Assembly: GCF_001870515.1 (NCBI RefSeq)
Contig: NZ_MDGT01000003.1
Span: 750,842 to 814,841, forward strand
DNA from: Idiomarina sp. MD25a
GTDB lineage: Bacteria; Pseudomonadota; Gammaproteobacteria; Enterobacterales; Alteromonadaceae
Length of the DNA: 64,000 nucleotides
Direction of reading: 5' to 3'
Shown here: positions 11,130 to 47,361 of the stretch, in pieces
Layout of the letters: each line of letters starts with the position of its first letter
How positions within the stretch are numbered: position 1 is the first letter of the stretch
Made by a program: the position numbers and the translations under genes
Notes under the pieces: generated by a model
Databases searched by the model: none
What the model saw: the letters and a program-made list of their open reading frames with translations, nothing else
Told to the model about the DNA's origin: nothing

Positions 11130-11531
11130 ATGGATAAACATCAAGGTTCTTGTTTATGTGGGGCCGTGAAATTCGAGGTCCAAGGCGCGTTTGATAGCTT
11201 TTACTTGTGCCATTGTCAGCACTGCCAAAAAGATAGTGGCTCGGCGCATGCTGCTAATTTGTTCTCTCAATCGGCTCGTCTTTTTTGGCATTCTGGCGCC
11301 GACGCAGTCACCTCTTTCACATTAACCGGTACGCGGCATCATAAAAGCTTTTGTAAGCACTGCGGATCGGCCGTGCCGAACACACAAATCGCGGGTTTGC
11401 TCGTGGTTCCAGCCGGTAGCCTAGACACAGATCTCGATATCCGTCCGACCGCACATATTTTCTCATCCAGCCGCGCGCATTGGGATAAGCCCAACTTCGA
11501 AATCCCCGTGTTCGACCGATTACCCCGGTAG
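11130..11531 (+). CDS. GFA family zinc protein
   Basis: A 133-residue protein with the zinc-binding cysteine pattern of the glutathione-dependent formaldehyde-activating (GFA) family: CLCG near the N-terminus, CHCQHC around residue 28, and CKHCG around residue 73. Many GFA proteins have no proven link to formaldehyde, so only the family is claimed. GGGAG lies before the ATG, just past the REP array. Its stop TAG (11529-11531) is the TAG of the next REP's GTAG. Confidence 0.9.
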   Translation: MDKHQGSCLCGAVKFEVQGAFDSFYLCHCQHCQKDSGSAHAANLFSQSARLFWHSGADAVTSFTLTGTRHHKSFCKHCGSAVPNTQIAGLLVVPAGSLDTDLDIRPTAHIFSSSRAHWDKPNFEIPVFDRLPR

Positions 11532-11586
11532 GTCGCGCCTTTGGCGCGACGGTCGATACCGCCCGTGCGCATAATGCGCACGCTAC
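11528..11586 (+). repeat. REPIN (A-B')
   Basis: GTAG and a perfect A stem with TTT loop, a spacer containing GGTCGATACCGC, then B' with loop ATAAT ending in CTAC. The first GTAG supplies the stop of the GFA gene. Confidence 0.9.
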
Positions 11587-11611
11587 GGTGATGTTGAACG
11601 TTTAACCCGAC

Positions 11612-11669
11612 GTAGGTCGCGCCTTTGGCGCGACAATGGATTTCCCCGTGCGCAAGATGCGCACGTTAC
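11612..11669 (+). repeat. REPIN (A-B')
   Basis: Perfect A stem from 11612; B' with loop AAGAT ends in TTAC (11666-11669). Read on the reverse strand this end is GTAA, whose TAA is the stop of the small membrane protein gene. Confidence 0.9.
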
Positions 11670-11875
11670 CTCTTTTGCTTGCTACGCATGACCAAAAGCT
11701 GCCATGCGGCATAACCTGTGACGAGGGCGAAAACTAGTTTCTTACCTAAATAGACCCAGTCAAAATCGGTGTTTGACCAAAACAAGAAAAGCGTAATGTC
11801 CACAATATTTATCAAGCAAACTATTGAGGCGAGAATAGCGAATAAAAGAAGGTACGACTCTTTAACAAAAGACAC
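11666..11875 (-). CDS. small two-helix membrane protein
   Basis: GTG start with AAGGA eight bases upstream; 69 residues. Two hydrophobic segments are seen, SYLLLFAILASIVCLINIVD and LGKKLVFALVTGYAAWQLLV, with a basic end MRSKQKR. No family is recognised. The stop TAA is part of the adjacent REP type B element. Confidence 0.65.
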   Translation of the reverse strand: MSFVKESYLLLFAILASIVCLINIVDITLFLFWSNTDFDWVYLGKKLVFALVTGYAAWQLLVMRSKQKR

Positions 11876-11972
11876 TGAGAAAGTCCTTATTTTTTATAGT
11901 TGTTTTTATTACGGTAATTGTTCTGGTATTAAAAAACAAACCGGCGTTTTGAAGCTTGCGCCAGAGGCTGCG

Positions 11973-12031
11973 GTAGGTCGCGCATTCTGCACGATAATGG
12001 ATATCGCCCGTGCGCAAGATGCGCACGCTAC
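11973..12031 (+). repeat. REPIN (A-B'), A arm degenerate
   Basis: GTAG and GTCGCGC, loop ATTCT, imperfect right arm GCACGAT; spacer ATGGATATCGC; perfect B' ending in CTAC at 12031. It lies in the gap before the gene at 12102. Confidence 0.85.
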
Positions 12032-12101
12032 TGCGGTGTAAGGGGTGATAAAAATATTAAAACTATGTTAAGATTGTGGTTTTTATTTTGGGGGATCTGA
12101 C

Positions 12102-12659
12102 ATGTTTCGTTGGTTTTTAATTATTTCAGCCTTGCTTATCACTCCTCGTGCATTCGCTATTGATGAATACTCGACTGCATCTGAGGCGGAAAAAAAGTTG
12201 ATCAAGCAAATTGTAAAAGTCTTGGAAATTGAACCGAGTGTAGAAGTCGAGAAGAAGATTTATGGTCGAATCGATTATATTTTTAAAACCGAAAATTGGA
12301 ATTCATACTGGTTAGGCTACAATGACTTAGCCTCATCTAAAATCAAAAGTCCAAACGTGTCATTTGTTGAGCAATATGTAAACACGAGTGATTTAGGCAC
12401 TTTTATCATCAGTTTTATGTATGACAAGCAGGTGAACCAAATTTTGGTTACTTCCAAGCAAATTCGCTACGGCGAAAAGGACGCTGCCCTAAAAGCATTT
12501 AAAAAGATTAAAGACGACACAGAGAATTATTCAGTTATTCATGAGTCTGAAAATTATGCGTTGATGCAGGAGACTGGACAGGTTAGCTACTCTAATTTTC
12601 ATGTAGGCAGTAAGGCCGCAACAGTTGTCTATATCGAACAAGGCATTATAGAGCTGTAG
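12102..12659 (+). CDS. secreted protein of unknown function
   Basis: 185 residues with a signal peptide (MFRWFLIISALLITPRAFA, cut before IDEY). The mature protein is mixed alpha/beta with a Lys-rich helical start (EKKLIKQIVKVLEIEP) and no cysteine pair or catalytic motif I can name. GGGGGA precedes the ATG. The stop TAG (12657-12659) is the GTAG of the next REPIN. Confidence 0.75.
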   Translation: MFRWFLIISALLITPRAFAIDEYSTASEAEKKLIKQIVKVLEIEPSVEVEKKIYGRIDYIFKTENWNSYWLGYNDLASSKIKSPNVSFVEQYVNTSDLGTFIISFMYDKQVNQILVTSKQIRYGEKDAALKAFKKIKDDTENYSVIHESENYALMQETGQVSYSNFHVGSKAATVVYIEQGIIEL

Positions 12660-12714
12660 ATCGCGCCTTGAGTGCGACACGTAGATAAGATCGTGCGGGC
12701 AAGGCGCACGCTAC
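12656..12714 (+). repeat. degenerate REPIN (A-B')
   Basis: GTAG, then ATCGCGCC and GTGCGAC arms with mismatches; B' is CGTGCGG and GCGCACG ending in CTAC. Older-looking than its neighbours. It separates the secreted protein gene from the paralogous membrane protein gene. Confidence 0.75.
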
Positions 12715-12729
12715 TCAAAAGGTTCTGTT

Positions 12730-13320
12730 TTGCTTTACATGATTATTGTCTTGATCTGCATTTTTCTTCCCCTCTTCGAAACCATCGAAGACAGCGGACC
12801 CCTTTGGGGGATGAATTACGATTCGCCGCTGTTCATGGCATATGTAGGGGATGTAGTACGCATCATTAAGTTGATAATTGTTGGCTTTGGTATTTATATA
12901 TTGGCCACGAAAGGTAAGACAATTCTTCAGTGTTCGCCGGCTAGATACCGCGGCTTTAAGTTTATCGTTAGTGCTTACATACTGGCGATTGGGCTGTTCT
13001 TAGTGCTTTTTGGTGGTAATTTATACTATGGAGTGGCGACTGATAATGAGCCCCACCATTACGAAAAAGTCATAGATAAGCACTCTTATTACGTATTTAC
13101 GCCTTATGGAAAACCAGACCCCGACGCTAAACAAGTTATTTACTTAAAGTGCGCGCTTGCATTAAATCGTTATGAGTTAAAAAAGATAGGCGAAATTGAA
13201 CCGTTGAAAGACTTTAATCTAGAGGTACAAAACCACAACCTGATTATGAGTTCCGTCTATCGCTATGGCAGTGTTACCAGAGGTTATAAACTCCCTTTAG
13301 ATGGGATTAGCTGTTCGTAG
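12730..13320 (+). CDS. membrane protein, paralogue of the protein at 10266
   Basis: A TTG start with AAAAGG seven bases upstream fits the alignment with the gene at 10266; 196 residues. Three hydrophobic segments precede a soluble domain with YLKCALALNRYELKKIG and a final SC. Shared features with the other copy include the LWG...SPL block and HYEK before the soluble part. No family is recognised. The stop TAG (13318-13320) is the GTAG of the following REP. Confidence 0.8.
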   Translation: MLYMIIVLICIFLPLFETIEDSGPLWGMNYDSPLFMAYVGDVVRIIKLIIVGFGIYILATKGKTILQCSPARYRGFKFIVSAYILAIGLFLVLFGGNLYYGVATDNEPHHYEKVIDKHSYYVFTPYGKPDPDAKQVIYLKCALALNRYELKKIGEIEPLKDFNLEVQNHNLIMSSVYRYGSVTRGYKLPLDGISCS

Positions 13321-13371
13321 GTCGCGCCTTTGGCGCGACATCAGATCCGGACCGTGCGCACAATGCGCACG
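13317..13371 (+). repeat. REPIN (A-B'), right tetranucleotide lost
   Basis: Perfect A stem with TTT loop; B' with loop ACAAT. The right end reads GCAT where CTAC is expected. The left GTAG is the stop of the upstream gene. Confidence 0.88.
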
Positions 13372-13385
13372 GCATCGCGCGATTG

Positions 13386-15476: not shown

Positions 15477-15515
15477 ATCCCTGTCCACTCCTGAATGTGT
15501 ATTCATGAGCGAATA

Positions 15516-15538: not shown

Positions 15539-15561
15539 AAATAAAAGTTTTTATTTCGTCC

Positions 15562-15584: not shown

Positions 15585-15629
15585 ATGGGATACTATTAAA
15601 AAATTCTAATAACAAATGGAAATAATAGT

Positions 15630-16547
15630 TTGAAACTAAAAATAATTTTATTAAGTCTCGTTGCGCTTGTGTTGTTAGGTATTGGTAACGCCTATTTTTT
15701 AGCGCCCCAAGTAAACGGCGACGGTCAGGTGGTTGCATATCGTGGCGGTGGTAGTCAGGTTGATTACGAAAAATTAAGCGACGCGTTGTGCACAGCAAAG
15801 TCGCTATCTGAAGCGGGTCTGACAACGGTGGAAAATACTCTGCAAGCAGCGTCGGCATCGGTTGCTGCTGGTGCGGATATTATTCATTTAAACGTTCACC
15901 TGATAAATGATAATGAATTGGTTGTATTTCACGATTGGAATCTTAGTTGTGCAACGAACGGGAATCGTCTTGTAAGTGATTTAAACGTTGATCAATTAGA
16001 ATCGATTGATGCGGGTTACGGCTATACGGCGGATTATGGTCGAACATTTCCCTTTCGTGGAAAAGGTTTTCGTATCGATCGGCTTGATGCGTTTTATGAA
16101 CGGTTTCCTAACCAAACGTTTTGGTTGAATCTAAAGACTAATAACGAGGAGGCGTTTCTAGCGTTAAGTCGTTTTATAAGCGAAAAAAATAACAAAACAG
16201 TTGTCATTACGTCTGCCAAGGGTAATGAGTGGTTTGCTAACGAGACTCCGTCGCTGCAAACATTTTCAGTGAATACAGTGAAAAACTGTGGCACAGATTA
16301 CTTGCTGGTTGGATGGGCGGGCGTTATCCCTGATTCATGTAAAAATACGGTTGTATTGGTGCCTCCTAACATGGCTAAGTTTATTTGGGGTTACCCCGAT
16401 CGGCTTGCAGCTCGACTGGCCCAACATAACACACAGATTTACTTATGGAATAAGCACGACATTGTTCCGCCAGAACAGGCAAATATCATTAAACAGGGTG
16501 TTGGCGTTGTTACGGGTAATATCGATTTCATCGAATCAGTGAAGTAG
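15630..16547 (+). CDS. glycerophosphodiester phosphodiesterase-like protein, catalytic His replaced
   Basis: 305 residues from a TTG start, with an N-terminal membrane helix (about 3-22). The fold of the GDPD family is visible: VENTLQA (Glu68-Asn69), a metal-region strand IIHLNVHLINDNELVVFHD (His101), and a C-terminal VGVVTGNID. However, the invariant His-Arg-Gly start of the active site reads Tyr37-Arg38-Gly39, and the usual metal-binding acid near residue 88 is Asn. The protein may be a non-catalytic or altered member anchored to the inner membrane. The stop TAG is the GTAG of the adjacent REPIN. Confidence 0.75.
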   Translation: MKLKIILLSLVALVLLGIGNAYFLAPQVNGDGQVVAYRGGGSQVDYEKLSDALCTAKSLSEAGLTTVENTLQAASASVAAGADIIHLNVHLINDNELVVFHDWNLSCATNGNRLVSDLNVDQLESIDAGYGYTADYGRTFPFRGKGFRIDRLDAFYERFPNQTFWLNLKTNNEEAFLALSRFISEKNNKTVVITSAKGNEWFANETPSLQTFSVNTVKNCGTDYLLVGWAGVIPDSCKNTVVLVPPNMAKFIWGYPDRLAARLAQHNTQIYLWNKHDIVPPEQANIIKQGVGVVTGNIDFIESVK

Positions 16548-16603
16548 GTCGCGCCTTTAGCGCGACGCTGGGTACCGCGCCGTGCGCCCAAGGCGCACGC
16601 TAC
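16544..16603 (+). repeat. REPIN shared by two convergent gene ends
   Basis: A stem with loop TTT (one mismatch), spacer, then B' ending in CTAC. The left GTAG gives the stop of the GDPD-like gene and the right CTAC, read in reverse, gives the stop of the RAYT gene. Confidence 0.92.
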
Positions 16604-17154
16604 CACATGTCGTAATCGGCGAAATTGTCGTCTACCCATGCATCGGTGATGTGTCGCCATGATGCTGGGTAGCGACCTTGTTTTAAATAGGCATTGAGGG
16701 TGGAGTACGGCCATTCCAATGCATTGTTAACGTAGCCATGTTTGACAGGATTAAAGCAGCAATACAGCGTATACATGTAGAGCTCTTGTTCATTACGAAT
16801 GATGCGATCGTAGAATCGATTGTGCCAAAGGCTTCCTTGCCGTCGGCGTCGTTTGGAAAAATTTTTTTGTGAATTTTTATAAGAAAATTCGGGTAGAGCG
16901 CGAGTGGTGAGCGCTTTAATCTTTCTAACGCGCAGATCGACTTTTTGGTCGGCAACACCAATCAATAGATGCATATGATCGGGCAATACAACCCACGCCT
17001 GAATATCAAAAGGGTGGGATACCATGGTCGTGCGCACAGCATTACGCAGCGCTTGAATGACGGGCTGGCGCGTCAGGTGGGGCTTACGACCTTGAGTAGC
17101 GACGGTAATAAAAAAATAATAACCGTCTTCGAAATAGCGGCGAACATTTTTCAT
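16600..17154 (-). CDS. REP-associated tyrosine transposase (RAYT)
   Basis: A 184-residue Y1-type HUH nuclease. AWVVLPDHMHLLIGV contains the His-x-His metal motif; GSLWHNRFYDR, then FNPVKHGYV and EWPYSTLNAYLKQGRYP are the conserved C-terminal blocks of RAYTs, which bind and cut REP hairpins at GTAG-flanked sites. It is flanked on both sides by REP elements of the two types seen throughout the window, the classical arrangement for a RAYT and its substrates. Only one RAYT is present here. Its stop codon is part of a REP. Confidence 0.95.
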   Translation of the reverse strand: MKNVRRYFEDGYYFFITVATQGRKPHLTRQPVIQALRNAVRTTMVSHPFDIQAWVVLPDHMHLLIGVADQKVDLRVRKIKALTTRALPEFSYKNSQKNFSKRRRRQGSLWHNRFYDRIIRNEQELYMYTLYCCFNPVKHGYVNNALEWPYSTLNAYLKQGRYPASWRHITDAWVDDNFADYDMW

Positions 17155-17479: not shown

Positions 17480-17650
17480 ATGTTCGGTCTATTTAAATCA
17501 AATCCAACTAAAAAAATGCGCAAAGAGCTCCAGCAGTTACAGCAAAAGGCGATGGAAATGCAGCGTAATGGCAATATCCGAGATAGCTCGCATATTAGCC
17601 AACAAGCCGATGAACTGTGGAAAAAGATCCAAGAAATGGAGAAGAAGTAG
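17480..17650 (+). CDS. DUF6435 family small protein
   Basis: A 56-residue frame from ATG 17480 (GAGG six bases upstream) begins MFGLFKSNPTKKMRKELQQL and ends KIQEMEKK. The MFGLFKS start, the AM-QRNG-IR block and the helical Q-A-ELWKKI end are the pattern of the DUF6435 family of small cytosolic helical proteins, of unknown role. The stop TAG (17648-17650) is the GTAG of the next REP. Confidence 0.85.
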   Translation: MFGLFKSNPTKKMRKELQQLQQKAMEMQRNGNIRDSSHISQQADELWKKIQEMEKK

Positions 17651-17789
17651 GTCGCGCCTTTGGCGCGACGTCAGATGCGCCCGTGCGCCCAAGGCGCACG
17701 TTACGCCGGTGGTCGATACCGCCCGTGCGCAAGATGCGCACGTTACGCCGGTGTTCGATATCGCCCCGTGCGCCAAAGGCGCACGCTAC
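17647..17789 (+). repeat. REP array: one A and three B'
   Basis: A at 17647-17669, then B' at 17682-17704, 17724-17746 and 17767-17789, spaced 42-43 bases. The spacers (GGTCGATACCGC and similar) are copied with each B'. This shows that type B can multiply alone. Confidence 0.9.
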
Positions 17790-17790
17790 A

Positions 17791-18549
17791 TTATGCTTCT
17801 GAATATGTAGCAATTGAAAAATCACAGCTTGATTCGCTCAACATGCGTTTCACTTCGGAAAAATGCATGGCTCCTAAAACGAGTACATATGTCTTTTGCG
17901 TATCTTTGCACACATGTTCGTTCACATTTTTCACAAGCGCTGTGTGTCTTTCATTATGAAAGTCGACGATTTTTTTCCATTGGTTTAATTCGCTTGATAG
18001 CGACGGTGTTTGTTCTAATAGCGATGTCATTTTATTAAAGATTGCATCATTATTTTTTTCGAATGCAGTGACGCAGGTTTCGGAATTTATCTCTGCCAAT
18101 GATGAGTCCATCATGCAGCTCCGTCGACCAAAAAACGAATTCATTATCTCGTTAAACAAGGCCGGATTTTTTAACTCATCAGCCTGAAATTTTTTTTGTA
18201 GCAACTGAAATGTTTGGGTTAAGGTGTTGCCGTAGTCTATTTCTCTCATTCTCTCGTTGCGGTTTTCCATTGATACGTTGATGATGGGTGTGTTGCCGTT
18301 ATTTTCTAAAAGCCGGTATGCCTCAACTTCAAGTCCCGATGTATCTTCAGAAATACTTCCATCGTCATTAAACATTGATTCACTACCCTCAGTGAGCAAC
18401 GCATCGGGCTCAACAGATTTTATATAGTTATAGAGATCGACGGCTTTGTACTTTGCTGACGCTTGGTGGACTGAGTTAACAATAATTAGTTCGTTTGCGC
18501 TGATTGCGGAGCTTATAAAAAGCGATAGACATATGAGTGCATACTTCAT
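17791..18549 (-). CDS. secreted protein, possibly TraB/GumN-like
   Basis: 252 residues with a signal peptide (cut near ISA-NEL). Mature protein features: SVHQASAKYKAVDLYNYI, a conserved-looking LLTEGSE, several Arg-Glu pairs around residue 100, four Cys (two near residue 140-160, two near 215 and 240), and VLVLGAMHFSEVKRML near the end. The early His, the E-G-S strand and the late G-x-x-H recall TraB/TIKI-type or ChaN-like folds, but the match is weak. The gene ends one base before a REP type B. Confidence 0.6.
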   Translation of the reverse strand: MKYALICLSLFISSAISANELIIVNSVHQASAKYKAVDLYNYIKSVEPDALLTEGSESMFNDDGSISEDTSGLEVEAYRLLENNGNTPIINVSMENRNERMREIDYGNTLTQTFQLLQKKFQADELKNPALFNEIMNSFFGRRSCMMDSSLAEINSETCVTAFEKNNDAIFNKMTSLLEQTPSLSSELNQWKKIVDFHNERHTALVKNVNEHVCKDTQKTYVLVLGAMHFSEVKRMLSESSCDFSIATYSEA

Positions 18550-18756: not shown

Positions 18757-19278
18757 ATGAGCAATACTGAGAATGCAAAAGTCGCTGGATTTACTGCACC
18801 TGGTTTAAAAGAGGATGCCGCTCAAAAGGCTATCGCTTTGCTCGATGACCGCTTGGTTGCGCTTATCGACCTTCAGCTTACTTTAAAGCATGTTCATTGG
18901 AACGTGGTGGGTCCAAATTTCATCGGTGTGCATGAGATGCTTGATCCGCAGGTTGATGCGGTACGTGAAATGACAGACACCATTGCAGAGCGAATCGCGA
19001 CCTTAGGCGGTGTGCCAGAAGGAACGCCAGAAGCGGTTGTGAGAAAGCGCTCATGGAAAGATTATTCGATTGGTAAGGGCTTAGTCGCTGAGCATTTATC
19101 TGAGCTTGATAAAGTCTACAATGGCGTCAACGGTGACCATCGTAAAGCAATCGATGAGCTGAGCGAGATTGATCCGGTATCGGAAGATATGCTGACAGGC
19201 CAGTTGGGTGATTTAGAGCAGTTCCAATGGTTTGTACGTGCCCACATCGAATCGTCTTCGGGCGAGTTGAAGCGGTAA
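18757..19278 (+). CDS. dps: Dps ferritin-like DNA-protection protein
   Basis: 173 residues. The ferroxidase ligands of Dps dodecamers are all visible: His45 and His47-Trp48 in LKHVHWNV, and Asp74/Glu78 in REMTDTIAERI, with the family block PNFIGVHEMLD between. The protein should oxidise and store iron with peroxide and shield DNA in stress. A strong AAGGAGGA ribosome-binding site precedes the ATG. A REP type B begins one base after the stop. The TonB receptor nearby is a separate unit. Confidence 0.96.
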   Translation: MSNTENAKVAGFTAPGLKEDAAQKAIALLDDRLVALIDLQLTLKHVHWNVVGPNFIGVHEMLDPQVDAVREMTDTIAERIATLGGVPEGTPEAVVRKRSWKDYSIGKGLVAEHLSELDKVYNGVNGDHRKAIDELSEIDPVSEDMLTGQLGDLEQFQWFVRAHIESSSGELKR

Positions 19279-19279
19279 C

Positions 19280-19361
19280 GTAGCGTGCGCATTTTGCGCA
19301 CGGGGTGACATTTGTTGTCGCGCCAAAGGCGCGACTTACGTCGACGGGCGGCGCGACCTAC
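19280..19361 (-). repeat. REPIN (B-A') plus a half A
   Basis: B at 19280-19302, spacer, A' at 19317-19339 ending in TTAC, then a right half of another A' (GCGCGAC then CTAC, 19351-19361). The final CTA gives the TAG stop of the queH gene on the reverse strand. Confidence 0.88.
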
Positions 19362-20011
19362 CCGTAATACTGGACGCCGATTTCGATGCGTTTACGGTCG
19401 TTTTTCACTCGCCAGCGGTTAGTATCGCGAAGTGAATAAATGCAGCCGCAGTATTCTTGCTGGTAAAAGCGCTCGCGCTTTGCCAGCTCTACCATCCGAC
19501 TCGAGCCGCCTTGTTTGCGCCAATTGAAAGTCCAGTAGGTAACATCATCATAACGGGCCGCTGCGCGCTCGCCACAATCATTAATTTGCTGCATATTTTT
19601 CCAGCGTGAGATACCTAAGCAACTGGTGATCACGTCAAAGCCATGCTCATGAGCATACAGGGCGGTGCGTTCAAACCGCATATCAAAGCAGACAGTGCAA
19701 CGCTCTCCACGCTCGGGCTCCCACTCTAACCCTCGCACGCGCTCGAACCAATTTTGGCTGTCGTAGTCGGCGTCGATAAACGGGATGCCCAATTTCTCGG
19801 CGAAGCGGATGTTTTCTTCTTTACGAATTAAATATTCTTTTTCGGGATGAATATTGGGGTTGTAAAAGAAGATTGTGATGTCGATGCCCGCATCAACCAT
19901 GCGCTGCATGACGTCTCCAGCGCACGGGGCGCAGCAAGAGTGCAGTAGTACTTTATTGGACTCGGTGGGGGCTTCGAGCACGATGCTTTGTTGCTTTGCC
20001 ATGATGGGCAT
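19358..20011 (-). CDS. queH: epoxyqueuosine reductase QueH
   Basis: 217 residues (or 214 from the ATG at 20002, MAKQQS). QueH carries out the last step of queuosine synthesis in tRNA and uses an Fe-S cluster plus a second metal site. Seen: the paired cysteines HSCCAPC near residue 26, [10 protein letters not shown] around residue 103, [11 protein letters not shown], and QEYCGCIYS, which are the family's conserved blocks. It replaces the unrelated QueG in organisms that lack it. The stop TAG comes from a half REP. Confidence 0.95.
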
Positions 20012-20092: not shown

Positions 20093-20165
20093 GTCGCGCC
20101 AAAGGCGCGACTTACGTCGGTCGTTGATGCGATGCATGGGTTGTCGCGCCAAAGGCGCGACTTAC
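20093..20165 (-). repeat. two REP A' copies
   Basis: A' at 20093-20115 and 20143-20165, both with loop AAA and ending TTAC. The second TTAC, read as GTAA, supplies the stop of the LPP20 lipoprotein gene, the last gene of the envelope operon. Confidence 0.9.
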
Positions 20166-20773
20166 AGTTCTGCTTCGAGTTCTTTCATGGCTTTTTGGGC
20201 GCGGAACTCTTCGTAGAGTGCTTCTTTTGATTGTGGATCGATGGTGCGTTTTGAGGCGTCGATAATCGCATCAAAGGTGTCGCGAGTTTCGTCCAGAACA
20301 ACCAAAGCACACAGGTATTTTTTGCCATCAATACGTGCCATTGCCATCTCTTCTGGCGTGCTGCCCACTAACGTTTCGCTCGCCACCTGCTTAGACACTT
20401 GCTCAAACGTAGCGCCTACTGAACTGCCGCCCTCGGCCTGTACTTTGCGGTTGTAGAGTTTATCCAATACGCTGGCTTTAACCTGGATCTGCTGGGTCAG
20501 GTCGGCGCGTGCTGCTGCAATCGCTTGTGGTTTATCGACCGCCATATTACCTGACCAATCGACGCATGATGAAGCCGCCAAGCCCTTGTCTGATTTCGGG
20601 TTAAATACCCAGCTGGGCGCGGTATCGTTTGGGTTGCCGGTCACTTTTTGCATATCGCTATTTGTTTGTTGCTGTGCTTGCTGTTGCATTTGTTGCGCAG
20701 TGGGTTGTTGCGGCTGTGATGAGCAGGCGGCCAATAGCGCTGATAAGCTAAGTACAAGTAGAGTTTTTTTCAT
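20162..20773 (-). CDS. LPP20 family lipoprotein
   Basis: 203 residues with lipobox LAAC (Cys17). A Gln-rich linker (about 20-40) is followed by PSWVFNPKSDKGLAASSCV and DKPQAIAAARADLTQQIQVK, the hallmark of LPP20 domains (a compact alpha/beta fold also found in the Vibrio FlgP and FlgT proteins). It probably sits in the outer or inner membrane facing the periplasm. It is the last of eight closely spaced genes; its ATG overlaps the transglycosylase stop (TAATG). Its own stop is REP-derived. Confidence 0.9.
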   Translation of the reverse strand: MKKTLLVLSLSALLAACSSQPQQPTAQQMQQQAQQQTNSDMQKVTGNPNDTAPSWVFNPKSDKGLAASSCVDWSGNMAVDKPQAIAAARADLTQQIQVKASVLDKLYNRKVQAEGGSSVGATFEQVSKQVASETLVGSTPEEMAMARIDGKKYLCALVVLDETRDTFDAIIDASKRTIDPQSKEALYEEFRAQKAMKELEAEL

Positions 20774-28963: not shown

Positions 28964-30211
28964 GTGGATATACCTCAAGATCAATCGCTGTGGGTTAAAC
29001 ATCGTTGGCTATTAATAATTGTCGTGTTATTTGGCGTGCTCGCTGCTACGGCGTTTGCGATGTCGGACATGTTGATGCCGAGTCGTCAGCAATCTTCTGG
29101 TGTAACTATCGCAAAGGTCAAGGCGCAACCTTTTAGTAAAGTCATCTCAGCCTATGGTGAACTACGACCGCAACAACAACGCACATTGATTGGTCGTTCG
29201 GCGGGTACCGTGATGGAGATTCGCAAGCGTCCTGGTGAGCAGGTAAATACTGATTCTATTGTACTGGTATTGTCTAACCCAGAGGTGGATAGTGCGGTGC
29301 AAAAAGCACAGCTTGATTTACAAAAGGCTGAAGCAGAACTTGCCGCGTTGCGTTCGGATTTATTAGACCAGCGTTTATCTTTAGATAATGAGCGGCGTCT
29401 ACTTGAGGCTGAGATCTCGACTAAGCGCGCGGAGCTCGAAGCACAAGAAGAGCTTGCCCGAAACGCCATCGTATCTAAGTTAGATTTGCGTAAGGCGCAA
29501 ATGCAGTTACGGCAACTCGAAATTAAACTGGAATTAGCCACTAAACGAGTTGAAAGCGCAGAGACTGCCTTGGCAGCGAAACTCTCGTCTGGCGAGTTAC
29601 AAGTCCAACAAGCACGTTATTTATTAGAGATTAGTCGTGAAAAGCAAGATGCACTCAACGTGCGTGCGGGTATGCAAGGCGTATTGGAAAGTCAGGAGAG
29701 TAGTCTTGCTTTGGGTCAGTGGATTGCCCAAGGAACCTCGCTGGGGATTGTTTCGAGTAACGATAGTTTATTTGCGGAACTTAATGTAAACGCTGCAGAT
29801 GCATCGAGCGTGCAGTTGGGTATGCCGGTGACGCTGAGTGTGCGTGGACACCGAGTCACTGGTGAGGTCATGCGTGTGGCGCCGAATGCGAGCCAAAATC
29901 AAGTTCAAGTGGATGTTGCGTTACAAAATGAACTTCCCAAAGTAGCGCGCAGTAACATTGATGTGCGTGGCGATATTGCTATTGTTCGACGCGATAACGC
30001 GCACGTGCTTCCTCGCCCTGCGCACTACCGAGAAGGTGATCCGCTGATGCTTTATCAGCACCAACAGGGAGACCAATACAGTGTGGTTGAGGTGCCCGTG
30101 TTAGAGGCTTCCAAAGACTATATTCAACTCGCCGACAGCGTCGCTGTGGGTACCGAATTTGTGCTCAGCGATCCAGCCAACTGGGAGCGCGCGTCGATAA
30201 TTCAACTGTAG
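28964..30211 (+). CDS. HlyD/MacA-type periplasmic adaptor
   Basis: 415 residues from a GTG start. One N-terminal membrane helix (about 14-33), a lipoyl half-motif (GRSAGTVMEIRKRPGEQV), a long alpha-hairpin (about 110-225, heptad-like with ELEAQEELARNAIVSKLDLR), then beta-barrel parts. This is the membrane-fusion protein of a tripartite or MacAB-like exporter. The FtsX-like permease follows in the same direction, but no ABC ATPase gene is next to them. The stop TAG is the GTAG of a REPIN. Confidence 0.9.
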   Translation: MDIPQDQSLWVKHRWLLIIVVLFGVLAATAFAMSDMLMPSRQQSSGVTIAKVKAQPFSKVISAYGELRPQQQRTLIGRSAGTVMEIRKRPGEQVNTDSIVLVLSNPEVDSAVQKAQLDLQKAEAELAALRSDLLDQRLSLDNERRLLEAEISTKRAELEAQEELARNAIVSKLDLRKAQMQLRQLEIKLELATKRVESAETALAAKLSSGELQVQQARYLLEISREKQDALNVRAGMQGVLESQESSLALGQWIAQGTSLGIVSSNDSLFAELNVNAADASSVQLGMPVTLSVRGHRVTGEVMRVAPNASQNQVQVDVALQNELPKVARSNIDVRGDIAIVRRDNAHVLPRPAHYREGDPLMLYQHQQGDQYSVVEVPVLEASKDYIQLADSVAVGTEFVLSDPANWERASIIQL

Positions 30212-30264
30212 CTCGCTTTGGGCGCGACATCAGGTGTGTCGCGTGCGCCTAAGGCGCACGCTCC
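30208..30264 (+). repeat. REPIN inside the exporter operon
   Basis: GTAG with a degenerate A (GCTCGCTTTGGGCGCGAC), spacer ATCAGGTGTGTC, B' CGTGCGCC-TAA-GGCGCACG ending CTCC (GGAG in reverse). It fills most of the gap between the adaptor stop and the permease start. Confidence 0.82.
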
Positions 30265-30281
30265 TGCGGAATCGAATACCT

Positions 30282-32711
30282 ATGACCCCATTTCTGATAA
30301 AATACACGCTAAGGCAATGGCGTTTGCACCTGATGCAAAGTGCGGTGTTAATAACCGGGTTTAGCTTATGCTGCGCTTTTCTCATCGGTTTGATTGCGAC
30401 CGCACCCACTTTATTCGCTGACCGTGAGCCGTGGATGCCCGATGAGCCGAATTTAGTAACCCTCGGTTTAGAAACTCAGACGCAAACGTTTAAACCGATG
30501 ACGTCTGAACAGCTCGCGTTATTTGAGCACTCACCGGCAATTGAGAAATTGATGCACATTTCTACCGGTGTTCACCATGTAATGGTGAGCCCGGAGGGTG
30601 AACGCTTTGACTCACCTCGGTTATTATTTGTCTCGCGTAATTTCATCGACACCTTTGCCGACCATTTACCAACGTCCTTTACCAAGCTTCAAGGCTCGGA
30701 AATGATTATTTCACATGAGTTTTGGGCTGACGAGAATTCATCTCGAGCGATTGATGATCTGGTGATGAGCTTTCCCGATACGGGTGTAAGTTATCCCGTG
30801 GTGGGTGTTTTGCCCAAGGACTTCTCGTTGTTCTCTGGACGTCAATTCGATGCGATCATGCTTATTCCTCAAATTAAGCAAACTTTCGTCGTTAAATTTG
30901 GTAACGACGACCGAGTAAGTGATGAACAGCGGGCATTTTTTACTAAAGAACTGATAAAAACTGCAAATAGCTCGTTCGGCATCGCGGAACTGAAACCTGG
31001 TTACACGATTGACCAAGTGAAGCCTGTTCGTCCAGAAACTGATGAACAAAGTGACAAATACTCGTTTGTTTCGCACTCAAGTTCGGGCAGTTGGCTTCCT
31101 AAAGTGGTTGCAGGAGTGCAGTTTTTTCCTCATCAACGCAATGAGGTACAACGACAATGGTGGATGCTATTCGGTTTGGCCATCGCATTTTTTGTCCTCA
31201 CGCTGTTTAACCTGATGACCTCTAATTTCTCGCTTTATTTGCAACGCCTGAATGAGTTTCAGACGCGTCAGGCGGTTGGCGCAAGCCATCAGGATTTATT
31301 CAAACTGATATTAGTCGAGAACTCTATTTTAGGCAGTGTTGCCGCCGTATTGGGCGTGGCTGGCAGTCACTGGTTAATTGCGTGGTTAGCTGATCAAATG
31401 GCGTTGGTAGGCGAGGTATCAGCGACCATGAGTATAGCTGCGGCAGCACTCAGTGCAGTATTGATTATATTGGTTGTCACGTTGTTGGGTAGTGTGCCGT
31501 TTGCGATTATGAATAAAAAGGCGGCATTCTCGCGCGCCAGAGGTCACGGCAAGAGCCGCTTTCAGCAGTTGCTTGATAACGGCAATATGGTTGTTCAGGT
31601 CGGATTCTCGTTCATTGCGATTACAGCAACGGTCGCGTTGTGGTTGACTCAAGATGCGCGTTTATCATCGGTGCCAATGGATAGCGAAGTACAGCAAATT
31701 ACTTATGCTAAGGCGGTGACAGAGTCGTCTCAGGTTATTGTGCTTGATGAGTGGCTTAAAGATACAGCGAGTTTAGATTTTGAAACGGCATTTTCAATGA
31801 AGTCGGTGGTTGAGTCCGATTTGAGTGCTATTAAAGTTGACTTAGAAAACCCCAACTCTCCGAGTGCGAGCACTATGCAAATCATGGCGGTATCTAAAAG
31901 CTATTTGTCGCTGCTAGGCGCGAACGTTTTAACAGGCTACCGGGATCCTGAGCAAGGTAACCGAGTGGTCATTAATCGATCGGCAGCGCTGGCTTTGGGG
32001 TTCGACAACCCTAACGAAGCCGTTGGCCAGCGTATTTATATTAAAAACGCCCATAGTTTTCGGTTGTCTGAAGGAGCACCCATTATTATTCGGGGCGTTA
32101 TCGAAGATTTACCCCACGAAAGCTTGAATCAGAGAGCCTCACCCGTGGTCTACAACTTGGCGGTGAGTAGCGTTATTGCCCCTTATCAGCTTAGTTTTAT
32201 TGCGCGTGGTGATAATGTTGCGCTGTTACGGGCTTGGTTAGATGGCAAGTCAGACGCCAGTGAGGGCGTCTTTAAGGTGAGTCAACAAGCTTCTGTAGGT
32301 GAGTTATTGCAAATGCAAGATGAACAGTGGTTTAAACTGGCTAAGCTAGTGCTTGTGTTGACCGTGCTAGTCTGTGGCTTAGCAGCAACAGGGGTGTATC
32401 AGCATTTGATGGCTTATTTGATTGAGCGCAGCCGTCGCTATGCGATTATGCAAGCGGTCGGCGCGCAGATAAATGATGTACTTGTTAGCATTGTCCAATC
32501 GCTGCTGCCTAAAGCCCTATTGGGACTGCTGTTAGGCGGTGCGGCGCTGATGAGTTTGAACAGTTGGTTCGCTGACGAATTTTATGCCCCCTTGGTGACC
32601 GCTCAATCGCTGGGTTGGAGTCTTTTAGGTTTTTCGGTATTGCTTTTGTTGAGCTGCGCCCCAGCCCTTTATCGACAGCTGTCCCGTCCTATTTCCCACG
32701 CTATGGCATAG
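30282..32711 (+). CDS. MacB/FtsX-type ABC permease without its own ATPase domain
   Basis: The start at 30282 (MTPFLIKYTL) is preferred since an earlier in-frame start lies inside the REPIN. About 809 residues. One membrane helix near the N-terminus, a MacB-like periplasmic core, three FtsX helices (about 300-420, with RQAVGASHQDLFKLILVENS), a second periplasmic core, and three more helices with RRYAIMQAVGAQINDVL. Duplicated FtsX permeases of this sort move peptides or lipids with a separate ATPase, which is missing here. The stop is ATAG of another REPIN. Confidence 0.88.
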   Translation: MTPFLIKYTLRQWRLHLMQSAVLITGFSLCCAFLIGLIATAPTLFADREPWMPDEPNLVTLGLETQTQTFKPMTSEQLALFEHSPAIEKLMHISTGVHHVMVSPEGERFDSPRLLFVSRNFIDTFADHLPTSFTKLQGSEMIISHEFWADENSSRAIDDLVMSFPDTGVSYPVVGVLPKDFSLFSGRQFDAIMLIPQIKQTFVVKFGNDDRVSDEQRAFFTKELIKTANSSFGIAELKPGYTIDQVKPVRPETDEQSDKYSFVSHSSSGSWLPKVVAGVQFFPHQRNEVQRQWWMLFGLAIAFFVLTLFNLMTSNFSLYLQRLNEFQTRQAVGASHQDLFKLILVENSILGSVAAVLGVAGSHWLIAWLADQMALVGEVSATMSIAAAALSAVLIILVVTLLGSVPFAIMNKKAAFSRARGHGKSRFQQLLDNGNMVVQVGFSFIAITATVALWLTQDARLSSVPMDSEVQQITYAKAVTESSQVIVLDEWLKDTASLDFETAFSMKSVVESDLSAIKVDLENPNSPSASTMQIMAVSKSYLSLLGANVLTGYRDPEQGNRVVINRSAALALGFDNPNEAVGQRIYIKNAHSFRLSEGAPIIIRGVIEDLPHESLNQRASPVVYNLAVSSVIAPYQLSFIARGDNVALLRAWLDGKSDASEGVFKVSQQASVGELLQMQDEQWFKLAKLVLVLTVLVCGLAATGVYQHLMAYLIERSRRYAIMQAVGAQINDVLVSIVQSLLPKALLGLLLGGAALMSLNSWFADEFYAPLVTAQSLGWSLLGFSVLLLLSCAPALYRQLSRPISHAMA

Positions 32712-32765
32712 ACCGCGCCTTGGCGCGACATCAGGTGTGTCCCGTGCGCCCATGGCGTATGCTCC
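32708..32765 (+). repeat. degenerate REPIN (A-B')
   Basis: ATAG, CCGCGCC-TT-GGCGCGAC, spacer ATCAGGTGTGTC, B' CGTGCGCC-CAT-GGCGTATG ending CTCC. Its left TAG is the permease stop; its right part is read in reverse as the last residues of the MFS transporter. The same spacer occurs in the REPIN at 30208, so they share an ancestor. Confidence 0.8.
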
Positions 32766-36076: not shown

Positions 36077-36307
36077 GTAGGTCGCGCCTTGGGCGCGACA
36101 TATGGATCTGGTCGTGCGCAAAATGCGCACGCTACGTCGCGTGTGGGGCATCACCCCCGTGTGGTAGGTCGCGCCTTGGGCGCGACATATGGATCTGATC
36201 GTGCGCAAAATGCGCACGCTACGTCGCGTGGGGGCATCACCCCGTGTGGTAGGTCGCGCCTTGGGCGCGACATATGGATCTGTTCGTGCGCAAAATGCGC
36301 ACGCTAC
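36077..36307 (+). repeat. REPIN array, three units of 85-87 bp
   Basis: Three complete A-B' units start at 36077, 36164 and 36249. A loops are TTG and B loops AAAAT in every copy; the only spacer change is one base (GGTC, GATC, GTTC). Separating sequence is also repeated. The array is recent. Its last CTAC (36304-36307) gives the stop of the HupE-like gene on the reverse strand. Confidence 0.94.
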
Positions 36308-36810
36308 GGTGTGAATTGTGGGGTGTTTTGGTCGAGCACGTGGCGCGGGACGTTACCGAGCACGTCACCTTCAACGATGATTTTGTGATCAGGAAGCTCT
36401 TGCCAGACACCGTCAACGACAAGTTTCGAGAAACTATCTGGTTGGCAGTCACTGGTCATCGACAGCACGATGTATTGTTCGCGTGCAAAGGTGATGGTTG
36501 ACCACGGCGAGCCATTATTTAGCTTCAACTCACAAGTTGCTTCTCCACTACTGACTAACACCATGCGCTGAGCGAAGTGCTGAAGCTTGTCTAGGTTTTG
36601 ATTAAGCAACTCTCCACTGATGCGGTCTTCAGGCATCCAGCTCTGATTCAATGCGAGCAGATCATGGAAAGTCAATTGCCATCGAACCTGTATGCCGTCA
36701 GCTCGGGCTTTAAGATTAATAAATGAAGTGCTAAACGTATGTGCCTGACTCGCTGGCGTCACACCCACTAATAGAACAAGGCAAAACAAAGCTAAGCGAA
36801 GTGTATTCAT
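36304..36810 (-). CDS. N-terminal part of a HupE/UreJ-like protein, truncated at a REPIN array
   Basis: 168 residues with signal peptide (cut near SQA-HTF). The AHTFSTSFINL opening, VRWQLTFHDLLALNQ and YIVLSMTSDC match the periplasmic leader of HupE/UreJ-type membrane proteins, which normally continues into six membrane helices. Here translation ends at TAG supplied by REP, right after DQNTPQFTP, and no helix-coding sequence remains before the next gene. The ATG overlaps the TPR gene stop (ATGA). It may be a broken gene or a new short secreted protein. Confidence 0.65.
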   Translation of the reverse strand: MNTLRLALFCLVLLVGVTPASQAHTFSTSFINLKARADGIQVRWQLTFHDLLALNQSWMPEDRISGELLNQNLDKLQHFAQRMVLVSSGEATCELKLNNGSPWSTITFAREQYIVLSMTSDCQPDSFSKLVVDGVWQELPDHKIIVEGDVLGNVPRHVLDQNTPQFTP

Positions 36811-43804: not shown

Positions 43805-44301
43805 TAAGCGCCATCGCTGTAGGTTAATTCATAGCTGTGACTATAAATTTCTAAGATGTTGCCAAACGGGTCTTCCATATAAATCATACGGTAAGGCTTT
43901 TCGCCTGGATAATAGTAGCGGGGCTTCTCCATCCGTTTTTTACCGCCAGCCTCAACGATACGTTCTGCAAGCTCCTCTAAATTGGGATCTTGTACGCAGA
44001 AGTGAAAAATACCGGTTTTCCAGTACTCGAAGTTGTCCTCTGGGTTTTGCTGGTTATCAAACTCAAAAATCTCTACGCCTATACGATCACCCGTTGATAG
44101 GTGGGCAATACGGAATCGCTGCCATCCTTTTCCAAATACGTCGGTACACATTTCACCAATCGGACTCTGGTCTTCGGTAATTTCCGTGGGCTTCATTATT
44201 AGATACCAGCCGAGTACTTCAGTGTAAAACTTTACCGCTTTATCGAGATCCGGAACAGATAATCCAATGTGCGAGAAAGTTCTGGGAAATACGTTGCTCA
44301 T
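43801..44301 (-). CDS. VOC family protein (glyoxalase/dioxygenase fold)
   Basis: About 166 residues from ATG 44301, chosen because GGAGGT lies just upstream; a start 14 codons earlier lacks a site. One VOC module pair with HIGLSVPDLDKAVKFYTEVL at the front, HFCVQDPNLEELAERIVEAG and PYRMIYMEDPFGNILEIYSH, giving His, His and Glu metal ligands. The substrate is unknown. A LysR gene is transcribed away from it across about 90 bases and is its likely regulator. Confidence 0.9.
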   Translation of the reverse strand: MSNVFPRTFSHIGLSVPDLDKAVKFYTEVLGWYLIMKPTEITEDQSPIGEMCTDVFGKGWQRFRIAHLSTGDRIGVEIFEFDNQQNPEDNFEYWKTGIFHFCVQDPNLEELAERIVEAGGKKRMEKPRYYYPGEKPYRMIYMEDPFGNILEIYSHSYELTYSDGAY

Positions 44302-44394
44302 TGCTACCTCCTGTGTTTTTGACGCTTGTAGGTTACAAAACAACCTGTCATTATGTGAAATTATTGTTTTTCATTAAGTTGATTACATATTGTT

Positions 44395-45270
44395 ATGGTT
44401 AATCCAATTTGGTTACGTACGTTTGTGACCTTGGCGAATACACAACACTTCACGCGCACTGCTGAACTATTGTTTATGACGCAGTCGGGGGTGAGCCAAC
44501 ACATCAAGAAGCTCGAGCAGCAGCTAGAGATCTCGCTTATTGTGCGGCATCATCACGCATTTGAGTTAACGGAGGCAGGGCAGCGTTTACTACTGACGGC
44601 GTCGGACTTGGTAGAGCAACTGGAATCTTTGCCACAGTGGATATCAGAGGACCCCGATGACCGTGGAGAGGTCAGGGTTATGTCGCCTGGGAGTGTGGGG
44701 TTGAAGTTATACGATGCTTTGCTGACGTTACAAATGGATGTTCCAGATTTAGTCATCGATTATCGCTTTGCGCCTAATGCGGACATTGAGGCTCGTGTTA
44801 CTGACAAACAAGTGGATATAGGACTGATGACCCAAGCTCCGGTAACTGAGGGACTCCAATTTACGCAACTGAGTCAAGAGCAATTGCTGTTAATTACGCC
44901 GCCAATCACTCACGATATTGATTTCTCAACATTGCAAGGTTTAGGTTTTATTGATCACCCCGACGGTTATCATCATGGAAACTTGTTACTGAGCCAAAAT
45001 TTTAATGAGTTCTCTCATATGAGTGAATTTAAAAAACGCGGTTTCTCAAATCAAATTAATTTAATTCTTGAGCCAGTTAAACGAGGTTTGGGTTTTACTG
45101 TGTTACCGGAGTTTGCGGTGGAGCAATCGCAAGGCGGCGAGTCTTTCAATATTCATCGATTACCACAGCCTGTGGCTGAACCCATCTACTGTGTGACGCG
45201 TAAAGGCCCGCAGCTGCCTAGTCGTATTTCGCGCGTGATGCGCCATATTGAAAGAAGTTTACACCACTAA
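44395..45270 (+). CDS. LysR family regulator
   Basis: 291 residues. The winged helix (about 1-60: WLRTFVTLANTQHFTRTAEL, then TQSGVSQHIKKLEQQL) is followed by an effector-binding domain with the LysR periplasmic-binding-like fold (GLGFTVLPEFAVEQ). It is divergent from the VOC gene, which it probably controls. The inducer is unknown. Confidence 0.93.
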   Translation: MVNPIWLRTFVTLANTQHFTRTAELLFMTQSGVSQHIKKLEQQLEISLIVRHHHAFELTEAGQRLLLTASDLVEQLESLPQWISEDPDDRGEVRVMSPGSVGLKLYDALLTLQMDVPDLVIDYRFAPNADIEARVTDKQVDIGLMTQAPVTEGLQFTQLSQEQLLLITPPITHDIDFSTLQGLGFIDHPDGYHHGNLLLSQNFNEFSHMSEFKKRGFSNQINLILEPVKRGLGFTVLPEFAVEQSQGGESFNIHRLPQPVAEPIYCVTRKGPQLPSRISRVMRHIERSLHH

Positions 45271-45355
45271 GCAGGGTCGCGTGTGTTGGTAATAACTCCT
45301 GAATAAACGTACAATAATTGAAAAACTCATAACAAGCCGCTGAGGGGAGTGCACA

Positions 45356-46531
45356 TTGGCGTTGCTGGCCGTTTTACCCGCATTAGTTTGGTTATTTGTT
45401 GGTTGTTTATTTCCGCACTGGTTACCTGCGTTGCCCCTCTCCACCGTTCAAGTTGTGAGCGGTGCTATTGGTGTGTTTTTACTACTTACTTTGTTTTTTC
45501 GACAGTGGCGATGGACGCACTGGGCACCGTGGCTGGCGGGTAATGCCGGCGCTTTTTATCTAGCCGAGCAAAGTGACACAGTCAATGCTCTGCCCATTTG
45601 GTGGGTATTATCGAGCTTGTGGTTGAGTTTCGCCCCGGTACCGTCGTTAAGAACATGGTCAGGTAAAGGCCTATTCATTTTATTACTTGGTTTGCCACTC
45701 GGTCTGTTATGGCCACCGTTAGGGGCGGGCATCGCTGCTTTGAATCCTTCGCATTGGTTAATGACCGCTACTTTGCGTGATGACTACCCGCAGTTAGCCT
45801 ACGGGTTGTTTGTCTTGGCGATTGCGGGAACTTGGGCAACGTTCCTGATGTATCAAGTATCAGCCGCCTATCGGTGGGCGCAATGGGCAGCGTGGTTGGT
45901 CATGATGGCGCTGTTGTTAACTGGCTCTGCGCCAGATGCGTTGAGTTGGACTGTGATTGTGGCAGCGACGGGATTGATTGTCGCTTTAGCAGACCAACTG
46001 TTGCGTTTAGCTTATATTGACGAATTAACTGGCCTACCGCAGAGAAGAGCCTTAATGAGTCAACTGCAACACCTTAAGCGACGCAGTGCAGTATGTATGC
46101 TCGATGTTGATCATTTTAAAAAATTTAATGATAAGTATGGTCATGATGTTGGTGACCAGGTGTTGCGTCTGCTCGGGCGAATTCTTGCTGAGCAAAAAGG
46201 ACTAAAAGCTTATCGCTATGGTGGGGAAGAGTTCACCTTAGTCTTTGCCCATAACGAGCAGGCGCGGTTAAAGACGCAGCTCGAAGAGGTACGCAAGGCA
46301 GTGGCGAGTTATCCGCTGTCGATACGTGATGCCAGCCGCCCCAAGCGTGGCAATGAAGGCAAGCAACAACGAGGTCAAAGTAAAGTCCAGAATAAACACG
46401 TTAAAGTCACCATCAGCTTGGGTGCCACAGTGCGGGCGAAAAACGATACCGCTGAGGCGATATTAAAGCGTGCTGACGAAAATCTTTACAGCGCCAAGAA
46501 GGCTGGACGTAACCGTGTTGTATTGCGCTAG
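45356..46531 (+). CDS. membrane diguanylate cyclase
   Basis: 391 residues from TTG with GGGGAG upstream. Seven or eight hydrophobic segments (about 1-215) lead into a GGDEF domain: DELTGLPQRRALMSQL, DVDHFKKFNDKYGHDVGD, and the active site YGGEEFTLVF. No RxxD inhibitory site precedes it. A basic insert (SRPKRGNEGKQQRGQSKVQN) lies late in the domain, which is unusual. Likely makes cyclic di-GMP in response to a membrane signal. Confidence 0.92.
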   Translation: MALLAVLPALVWLFVGCLFPHWLPALPLSTVQVVSGAIGVFLLLTLFFRQWRWTHWAPWLAGNAGAFYLAEQSDTVNALPIWWVLSSLWLSFAPVPSLRTWSGKGLFILLLGLPLGLLWPPLGAGIAALNPSHWLMTATLRDDYPQLAYGLFVLAIAGTWATFLMYQVSAAYRWAQWAAWLVMMALLLTGSAPDALSWTVIVAATGLIVALADQLLRLAYIDELTGLPQRRALMSQLQHLKRRSAVCMLDVDHFKKFNDKYGHDVGDQVLRLLGRILAEQKGLKAYRYGGEEFTLVFAHNEQARLKTQLEEVRKAVASYPLSIRDASRPKRGNEGKQQRGQSKVQNKHVKVTISLGATVRAKNDTAEAILKRADENLYSAKKAGRNRVVLR

Positions 46532-46581
46532 ATTTTTGCTCGGTGGATAATGCGACCTCGCTTTTCTAAAAGGAGAATGTT

Positions 46582-47361
46582 GTGCGACTAACTGTAACGG
46601 CCTTGGTAACCACTTTAAGTCTAACTTTATTGGGTGCCTGTAGTACAAAACCAAACCACGAGGAAAGCTCGGCATCGACCGTTTTGCCTCCTTCAGTAAA
46701 GTGGCAAACGCAAAGTAAAGAATACCCACTCATCACTCAAGCTATATACCGAGATGCAGCGTTACAGCTTATGCAGCGTGAGCTACCGACAAACTGGGTT
46801 GTGGTGATGGATGTCGATGAGACAGTATTGGATAACAGCGGTTATCAGGCCATGCTGAGTCAAACGGGACAATCGTATTCGACAGCGAGCTGGAATCAGT
46901 GGGTCAAAAGTAAACAGGCGAAACTGGTGCCAGGAGCGAGTGACTTTATTACGTCAGTGGTGAGTGCGGGTGGTAAAGTAGCCCTAGTGACTAACCGAGA
47001 TAAGCAGTTAGATAGTTACACTTGGCAAAATTTAATGGCTGTGGGCCTGCCCATTAATGCCGACAATACGTGCTTGATGGGGCGCAGCCAAGCGGATAAA
47101 GAGGCGGTTGATGGGCAAGCGATTGTGAATGACAAAGATTTACGTCGCCAGCAACTATCTAGCGGCGATGTCGACTGTTATAGCCCCTCTGTGACGCCTG
47201 CGACCGAATGGTCACAGCCGCATAACATCGTGATGCAAGTAGGCGACAATATTGAAGATATTGCGAAAACTACACAAGCGTCTGCGGATCCGAGCGCCTT
47301 ATTGCCTCGCTTTGGCAAGGATGTCGTTATTTTACCTAATCCGATGTACGGCTCATGGTAG
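46582..47361 (+). CDS. e(P4)-type acid phosphatase lipoprotein
   Basis: 259 residues from GTG with AAGGAG upstream. Lipobox LGAC (Cys20). A HAD class C phosphatase: VVVMDVDETVLDN (Asp77 and Asp79 nucleophile/acid), ALVTNR, and a late VGDNIED. Relatives dephosphorylate nucleotides such as NMN at the outer membrane. The stop TAG (47359-47361) belongs to GTAG of a REP type A. Confidence 0.94.
   Translation: MRLTVTALVTTLSLTLLGACSTKPNHEESSASTVLPPSVKWQTQSKEYPLITQAIYRDAALQLMQRELPTNWVVVMDVDETVLDNSGYQAMLSQTGQSYSTASWNQWVKSKQAKLVPGASDFITSVVSAGGKVALVTNRDKQLDSYTWQNLMAVGLPINADNTCLMGRSQADKEAVDGQAIVNDKDLRRQQLSSGDVDCYSPSVTPATEWSQPHNIVMQVGDNIEDIAKTTQASADPSALLPRFGKDVVILPNPMYGSW

Follow-up and report, generated by a model that had tools for sequence, protein, structure and literature searches.

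Stop codons within the GTAG heads of REP elements of Idiomarina: a possible outcome of target choice and survival

The subject here is repetitive extragenic palindromes (REPs) as found in a 64,000-nucleotide stretch of DNA (the 'window', G000:C3:750842-814841) within a 2.68-Mb Idiomarina-type genome, labeled G000, and particularly the tendency of the GTAG or GTAA 'head' of these elements to double as the stop codon of the preceding gene. This coincidence is real, and it is repeated in a more distant, REP-rich congener, G004. That it mainly reflects target choice along with survival, rather than a translation device, is the reading favored here, with moderate confidence. GTAG-headed REPs, or pairs of these forming REPINs (REP doublets forming hairpins), would be spread by the REP-associated tyrosine transposase (RAYT) whose gene lies at 16600-17154. 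Each new copy would land with its hairpin immediately 3' of an already present GTAG, or less often GTAA, i.e., with a geometry as for IS200/IS605 elements, whose insertion occurs 3' to a short target. Any that land inside genes or promoters presumably would be lost, with copies just behind genes surviving. As about half of same-strand GTAG words in 3' space consist of a last codon base plus a TAG stop, many survivors would be flush with stops, and insertion at such a stop would alter no amino acid.

Observations supporting this reading are the exactness of the positional peak, its replication, the non-random phase of gene-end REPs, agreement with the supply of GTAG words, and conservation of protein lengths. 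No special affinity for stops nor translational role is needed. The same goes for selection on flush hairpins, for the blocking of ribosomes, and for transfer-messenger RNA (tmRNA) control, as had been entertained in a preliminary description of this DNA.

Genomes and definitions

The term 'strict' REP describes an element with a GTAR head and intact arms, i.e., without mismatch, and 'offset 0' means that this head carries the stop codon. As a GTAR start is required by definition, TGA stops are excluded from the REP-flush class. The G000 sample consists of the window along with 20 stretches fetched around listed REP places. Genes were called using a home-made hexamer model, with a well-scored gene possessing a coding score >15. 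Genomes G009, G013, and G018, assigned to the window's genus, are related to G000 and so are not independent replicates. The replicate instead is G004.

Position and phase relative to stops

Across the whole G000 genome there are 104 REP places with at most one mismatch, versus 2 for the reversed pattern, and 81 of these places are without mismatch. The heads of these 81 strict REPs are GTAG in 64 cases and GTAA in 17, the pattern requiring GTAR, and GTAR flanks at least one side in 80 of 96 hairpins when no head is required. Only 2 of the 81 lie inside genes. Offset 0 is seen for 17 of the 81 relative to any open reading frame (ORF) end and for 13 relative to the ends of well-scored genes. 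When each REP was moved at random within its own intergenic gap, dropping those inside genes (2 in G000, 8 in G004), 0.48 were expected at offset 0 versus the 13 observed, a number reached in none of 10,000 simulations. In G004 the equivalent values are 15 of 65 strict REPs versus 0.83 expected. The claim that such in-frame overlap on both strands would be very unlikely by chance is thus borne out genome-wide, and the tabulation of distances against shuffled positions, as proposed in the preliminary description, displays a peak at exact overlap in both genomes. That peak is one position wide, with strict REPs absent from offsets 1-4 in G000 and from offsets 1-13 in G004, although a TAR that follows a stop cannot take up offset 1 or 2. 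Stretches from G018, G013, and G009, which share history with G000, have 8 of 96, 5 of 50, and 7 of 49 strict REPs, respectively, at offset 0.

Phase, too, is not random. That is, over G000 and G004 combined, 39 REPs are in frame with the gene end and 2 are read through, one at 9735 of the window and the other in G004 (locus L163). A third read-through, at offset -31 in G013 (L068), falls outside of this pool.

Supply of GTAG words

Uniform placement, as the sole null expectation, is too generous. The coincidence looks miraculous against it but does not against the supply of GTAG words, i.e., same-strand words found between the stop and 60 nt downstream, outside of other genes, at genes without a REP. 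For this comparison REP arms were allowed up to 2 mismatches, giving 93 heads in G000 and 102 in G004 (versus 2 and 4, respectively, with a reversed-pattern control). Free GTAG words are divided between the stop and positions 4-60 as 18:25 in G000 and 14:13 in G004, and GTAG-headed REPs as 16:8 and 16:15. Pooled, REPs stand at 32:23 (32 of 55 at the stop) versus 32:38 for free words (32 of 70; P=0.21). The stop therefore is not significantly preferred over other GTAG words within 60 nt of gene ends, and the stop coincidence largely follows if REPs are taken to sit at GTAG words in 3' space. Among the related stretches, the same test gave P=0.28 for G018 and P=1.0 for G013.

With Escherichia coli K-12, sampled as 7 stretches of 50 kb (350 kb), REPs are found on two stops (yafL and rcsC) and 13 lie at positions 4-60, with free GTAG words at 6:17. 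As TAG stops are rare there (13 of 261 called stops), fewer such coincidences are to be expected.

Which stop is used follows the REP head rather than the habit of the genome. Over G000 and G004, G-preceded stops bearing REPs are TAG in 32 cases and TAA in 7, versus 32 TAG and 89 TAA among other G-preceded stops (P=9e-10), in keeping with the preference for GTAG over GTAA shown by REP heads at large (64 versus 17 in G000). The suggestion, made in the preliminary description, that RAYT insertion recognizes stop-like TAG/TAA fares the better of the two offered there, though it is GTAG that is favored, not TAG/TAA as such. A CT dinucleotide directly preceding GTAG was also considered, as a general junction, and was rejected, being found at 0 of 68 (G000) and 1 of 50 (G004) REPs away from stops. 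At stops it is present with 2 of 13 and 5 of 15 REPs, respectively, the values for other GTAR stops being 6 of 78 (G000) and 6 of 66 (G004).

Protein lengths

Orthologous gene ends lacking REPs, a comparison also put forward in the preliminary description, reveal unchanged protein length at 7 of the 10 ends compared. YicC ends at the same codon position in all 19 genomes, and the right-hand gene at G004 locus L173 likewise is of one length in all 19. A DctA/GltP-like protein has the same end in 17 of 19, the frame being broken in G007 and G009. A histidine kinase (L009) is as long as in G004, G006, and G001, with the other 12 REP-free genomes 1-7 codons longer, and the protein of L007 is as long as in G009 but 1 codon longer in G004 and 4 in G006. 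The left-hand gene of G004 L173 matches G001 in length, farther congeners being 1-6 longer, and the right-hand gene of G004 L171 matches G000, G009, G013, and G018, with ten others one residue shorter. As lengths match REP-free congeners at 7 of 10 ends, the position of the stop would seem mostly to have preceded the REP.

Flank matching over seven genomes (G000, G013, G009, G018, G004, G006, and G001) revealed no clean empty site in near-identical DNA. What it yielded were arrays of changed length, differences where one REP adjoins another, and comparisons between distant sequences, none of these decisive.

Weighing the alternatives

A number of observations weigh against target choice plus survival. 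G000 taken alone is suggestive of a bias toward stops versus GTAG words (P=0.07), and stops are over-represented in the stretches from its relative G009 (8:1 versus 2:6; P=0.015). When the reference is every intergenic GTAG word of either strand, 12 of 41 REP clusters in G000 are at stops versus 6.7% of words (P=1e-5), and in G004 it is 13 of 48 clusters versus 6.6%. Target choice therefore requires that survival be limited to 3' space, and that excess presumably arises because REPs lying upstream of genes disappear. As to lengths, the L007 and L173-left proteins differ from those of farther congeners, the dipeptidase is 2-6 codons shorter in genomes with the REP than in those without, SuhB is 3 codons shorter than in the G000 group (if longer than in most others), and the product of the gene ending at 20162 is 1-3 codons shorter. 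Nor was a pre-insertion GTAG found in any of 7 compared orthologues with same-length ends, stops there being TAA, TGA, or TAG lacking the G. GTAG is present in some other congeners (the kinase in G006, YicC in G007), and at these distances the comparison is weak either way. Lastly, in vitro work (PMC8266576) has GTAG as part of the element, serving in guidance or recognition and likened to the guide of IS200/IS605 elements rather than to their target, with cleavage at CT or CA.

The last point bears on what is a somewhat unlikely alternative yet the foremost of those considered, that GTAG travels with the REP, that landing is random, and that the survivors are those whose own TAG falls in frame, leaving the protein nearly intact. 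Recognition in vitro depends on GTAG (PMC8266576), and the shortened dipeptidase is as would be expected. So, too, is the last leucine codon of the DctA/GltP-like protein, which is CTG in all 5 genomes with a REP at this stop but in 1 of 12 without, as if the G had come with the REP. With random phase, however, read-throughs should outnumber in-frame stops two to one, and what is seen is 2 versus 39. Positions past the stop should be equally tolerated as well, but offset 0 holds 39 REPs versus 30 for positions 4-60 (G000 and G004), and the identical lengths at 7 of 10 ends also are contrary to a REP supplying the stop.

Selection for function, with a hairpin behind the stop tuning termination, triggering ribosome rescue, ending transcription, or protecting the mRNA 3' end, would seem less likely still. 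In its favor, three single REPs, when folded, gave 8-bp stems of -12 to -14 kcal/mol, with GTAG unpaired and the stem beginning at the first base 3' of the stop. In addition, REPs within 15 nt of a stop, i.e., <16 nt, a range into which offset 0 falls, lower translation in E. coli according to work cited in PMC12306157, stop REPs persist across species, and SuhB of G004 has a REP pair where congeners have a terminator-like hairpin. With function, though, any offset within about 15 nt ought to suffice, and yet strict REPs in G004 avoid offsets 1-13 (one decayed REP is at 6). The share of REPs at stops also agrees with GTAG-word supply, and several flush REPs have decayed (those at 12659, 19358, 30211, and 32711). 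Distance of a REP from a stop should not by itself be taken as evidence of translational control.

With erosion, which appears doubtful to a greater degree, REPs would insert anywhere downstream and later deletions then would join the TAG or CTA of a REP with the end of a gene. Its evidence comes from convergent gene pairs, of which four have both stops flush with one element, two in G004, one in G018, and one in the window. The window's pair, at 16544/16603, includes the RAYT gene, and the others are at 14606/14642 of G018 L075, at 6635/6677 of G004 L171, and at G004 L173. With the last of these a single palindrome, GTAG-CTTGCGCATTAAGCGCAAG-CTAC, makes up the whole spacer and provides TAG to both genes. 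For L173 and L171, the two pairs compared, congeners have different DNA as their spacers (with members of the G000 group possessing a terminator-like hairpin at L171), and the congeners' intergenic DNA is absent at these two loci. As simple insertion would keep that DNA, later deletion or replacement must be assumed. Erosion nevertheless would require repeated in-frame fusion at the exact codon, and the intermediate offsets, 1-13, are nearly empty. Chance or a gene-calling artefact is most improbable, notwithstanding that 2 of the window's 13 ORFs are weak and the gene caller home-made, given that 0 of 10,000 random placements reach the observed count and that conserved proteins with Pfam/NCBIfam matches end at REPs, with replication in G004.

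Target choice plus survival does not account for the four convergent pairs. A further reading, offered tentatively, is that the GTAG head is a host landing site rather than a piece that moves, with the stop simply being one such site. In a bolder version, a RAYT could swap the whole stretch between two convergent stops for one REP or a REP pair. According to Bertels and Rainey (PMC3116915), excision of a REPIN starts with the conserved head of one side, while on the opposite side the final ~6 bp stay in place, and, read on the other strand, this would leave the head behind. If the head is a landing site, then the frame and codon position of gene-end REPs record the site of insertion, and a partial answer is provided to how REPs spread, a question described as unresolved in the Introduction of PMC8266576. 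Gene ends serve as a ruler (of frame, codon, and ancestral length), such that stop REPs can tell GTAG as target from GTAG as cargo.

Gene ends of the window

All thirteen gene ends named in the preliminary description are correct to the base, with a TAG or TAA stop followed directly by a GC-rich hairpin of GTCGCGC or CGTGCGC type. Strict REPs are found at nine, i.e., those ending at 11531, 13320, 16547, 17650, and 47361 on the forward strand and at 11666, 16600, 20162, and 36304 on the reverse, and decayed REPs are found at the other four. Pfam families were seen with 7 of the 11 ORFs scanned. The other four scanned (12659, 13320, 20162, and 36304) have good coding scores, and three of these have orthologues in at least one congener stretch, 13320 having only weak, 35% matches. 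The two further ORFs, ending at 17650 (44-56 aa) and 11666 (45-69 aa), are short and weak and would not be called genes on present evidence, although conservation of their ends is seen in relatives.

On the forward strand, the REP at 11528-11550 ends a GFA-domain gene (11130-11531), with REP and stop kept in G018, G013, and G009. A decayed REP at 12656-12678 ends gene 12102-12659 and is near-intact at the same stop in G018, and a strict REP at 13317-13339 ends gene 12730-13320. The REP at 16544-16566, stop of a GDPD-family gene (15630-16547), is the left half of an inverted pair whose right half, 16581-16603 on the reverse strand, ends the RAYT gene and is flush in G000, G009, G013, and G018. 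The REP at 17647-17669 ends the short ORF at 17650, an end kept in G009 and G013. Decayed REPs at 30208-30228 and, with an ATAG head, at 32708-32729 end a membrane-fusion gene (28964-30211) and an FtsX/MacB-type gene (30234-32711), respectively, and the REP at 47358-47380, kept in G013 and G018, ends an acid phosphatase gene (46582-47361). On the reverse strand, GTAA-headed REPs at 11647-11669 and 20143-20165 end the weak ORF at 11666 and gene 20162-20773, with TAG plus REP at the same codon in G013 for the former and in G013 and G009 for the latter. A decayed REP at 19340-19361 ends a queH-family gene (19358-20011), and the REP at 36285-36307, the first of an array, ends gene 36304-36810. The arrays behind 11130-11531 and 36304-36810 vary in length between species, with the stop-flush REP persisting.

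The counter-example is the forward REP at 9735-9757, read through out of frame by an aromatic amino acid lyase gene (8232-9761). The last eight residues of that lyase are REP-encoded, and its G013 orthologue ends differently, 20 codons longer. Near misses of offset 0, as TAA-N-GTAG, are found at 19276-19302 and 17767-17793 (a ferritin gene and the 17791 gene).

REPs and the RAYT gene

These elements are members of the GTAG REP super-family, possessing an unpaired GTAG beside a short palindrome and being present in many copies that are largely extragenic. Thirty-two of the window's 39 strict REPs lie between 9735 and 20165, surrounding the transposase gene (16600-17154, reverse strand). Its sequence identifies that gene as a RAYT (TnpA_REP) gene and, being bordered by REPs, it has the layout of a REPtron. 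It is the genome's sole Y1_Tnp match, has an HMH motif, scores 150 bits against NCBIfam REP_Tyr_transpos (NF047646; cut-off 80), and matches the solved TnpA_REP structure 4er8 (E 8e-23). A transposase scan found relatives in Idiomarina fontislapidosi, an Idiomarinaceae metagenome-assembled genome, and I. baltica.

Elsewhere a half REP at the stop is followed by a complete REP, pointing to insertion of one REP into another or to duplication there. This is seen at the dipeptidase end (L113), at 9910 of L161, and at 5426 and 5776 of L182. Two REPs lie between tandem tRNA-Lys genes (L010, 9653-9913), an array that differs in G018 (L189) and G004 (L160). Downstream of yicC (L137, L138, L140), DNA is alike up to the stop REP and then unrelated in G000, G009, and G013, and the same is seen with the histidine kinase (L196-L199) for G018 and G009 versus G000 and G013. 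REPs hence may mark recombination or synteny breaks. Where yicC lacks a strict REP (L142, L147, L149, L152, and L155), a GTAG palindrome, GTAGCCTGCGGTT..ACCGCAGG, lies 7-11 nt past the stop, not flush. In G001 (L141) another type of hairpin, CTCGTGTC..GACACGAG, comes right after the GTAA of the stop and may represent an additional, stop-flush variant of the REP.

Comparison with known systems

The phenomenon is known in print and is of an ordinary kind, its most likely basis being target choice together with survival. RAYT/TnpA_REP REPtrons, as of E. coli, S. maltophilia, and Marinomonas, similarly have one IS200-like gene that is flanked by REPs and has REPs crowded around it. The window's REPs differ in having 8-bp stems (as folded for three) and GTCGCGC, CGTGCGC, or CTTGCGC arms. 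With IS200/IS605 elements, such as IS608, insertion takes place on one strand, 3' of a target that is short and fixed, a rule that would give the same geometry as stop-flush REPs, but REPs, unlike these elements, carry no gene.

The preliminary description took the stop coincidence not to be known. Di Nocera et al. 2013 (PMC3733652), however, say of the termini of GTAG REPs that these "often provide" a TAG stop, and PMC2817692 describes REPs that follow the stops of RAYT genes immediately or lie very near them. No paper testing GTAG-word supply at stops, nor REP-stop counts versus GTAG supply, phase, or orthologue lengths, was found in the literature searched, with subscription journals mostly outside of it, and among the matches listed no paper joined Idiomarina with RAYTs or REPINs. 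The super-family of PMC3733652 is alike in its short palindrome, unpaired GTAG at one end, and location mostly 3' of genes. The difference is that the available portion of that paper gives the coincidence one sentence, without counts or mechanism, whereas here offset, phase, a word-supply null, and orthologue lengths are considered. Pseudomonas fluorescens REPINs (PMC3116915) are alike as inverted REP pairs, GTAG...CTAC, acting as units, and differ in that many Idiomarina REPs are single.

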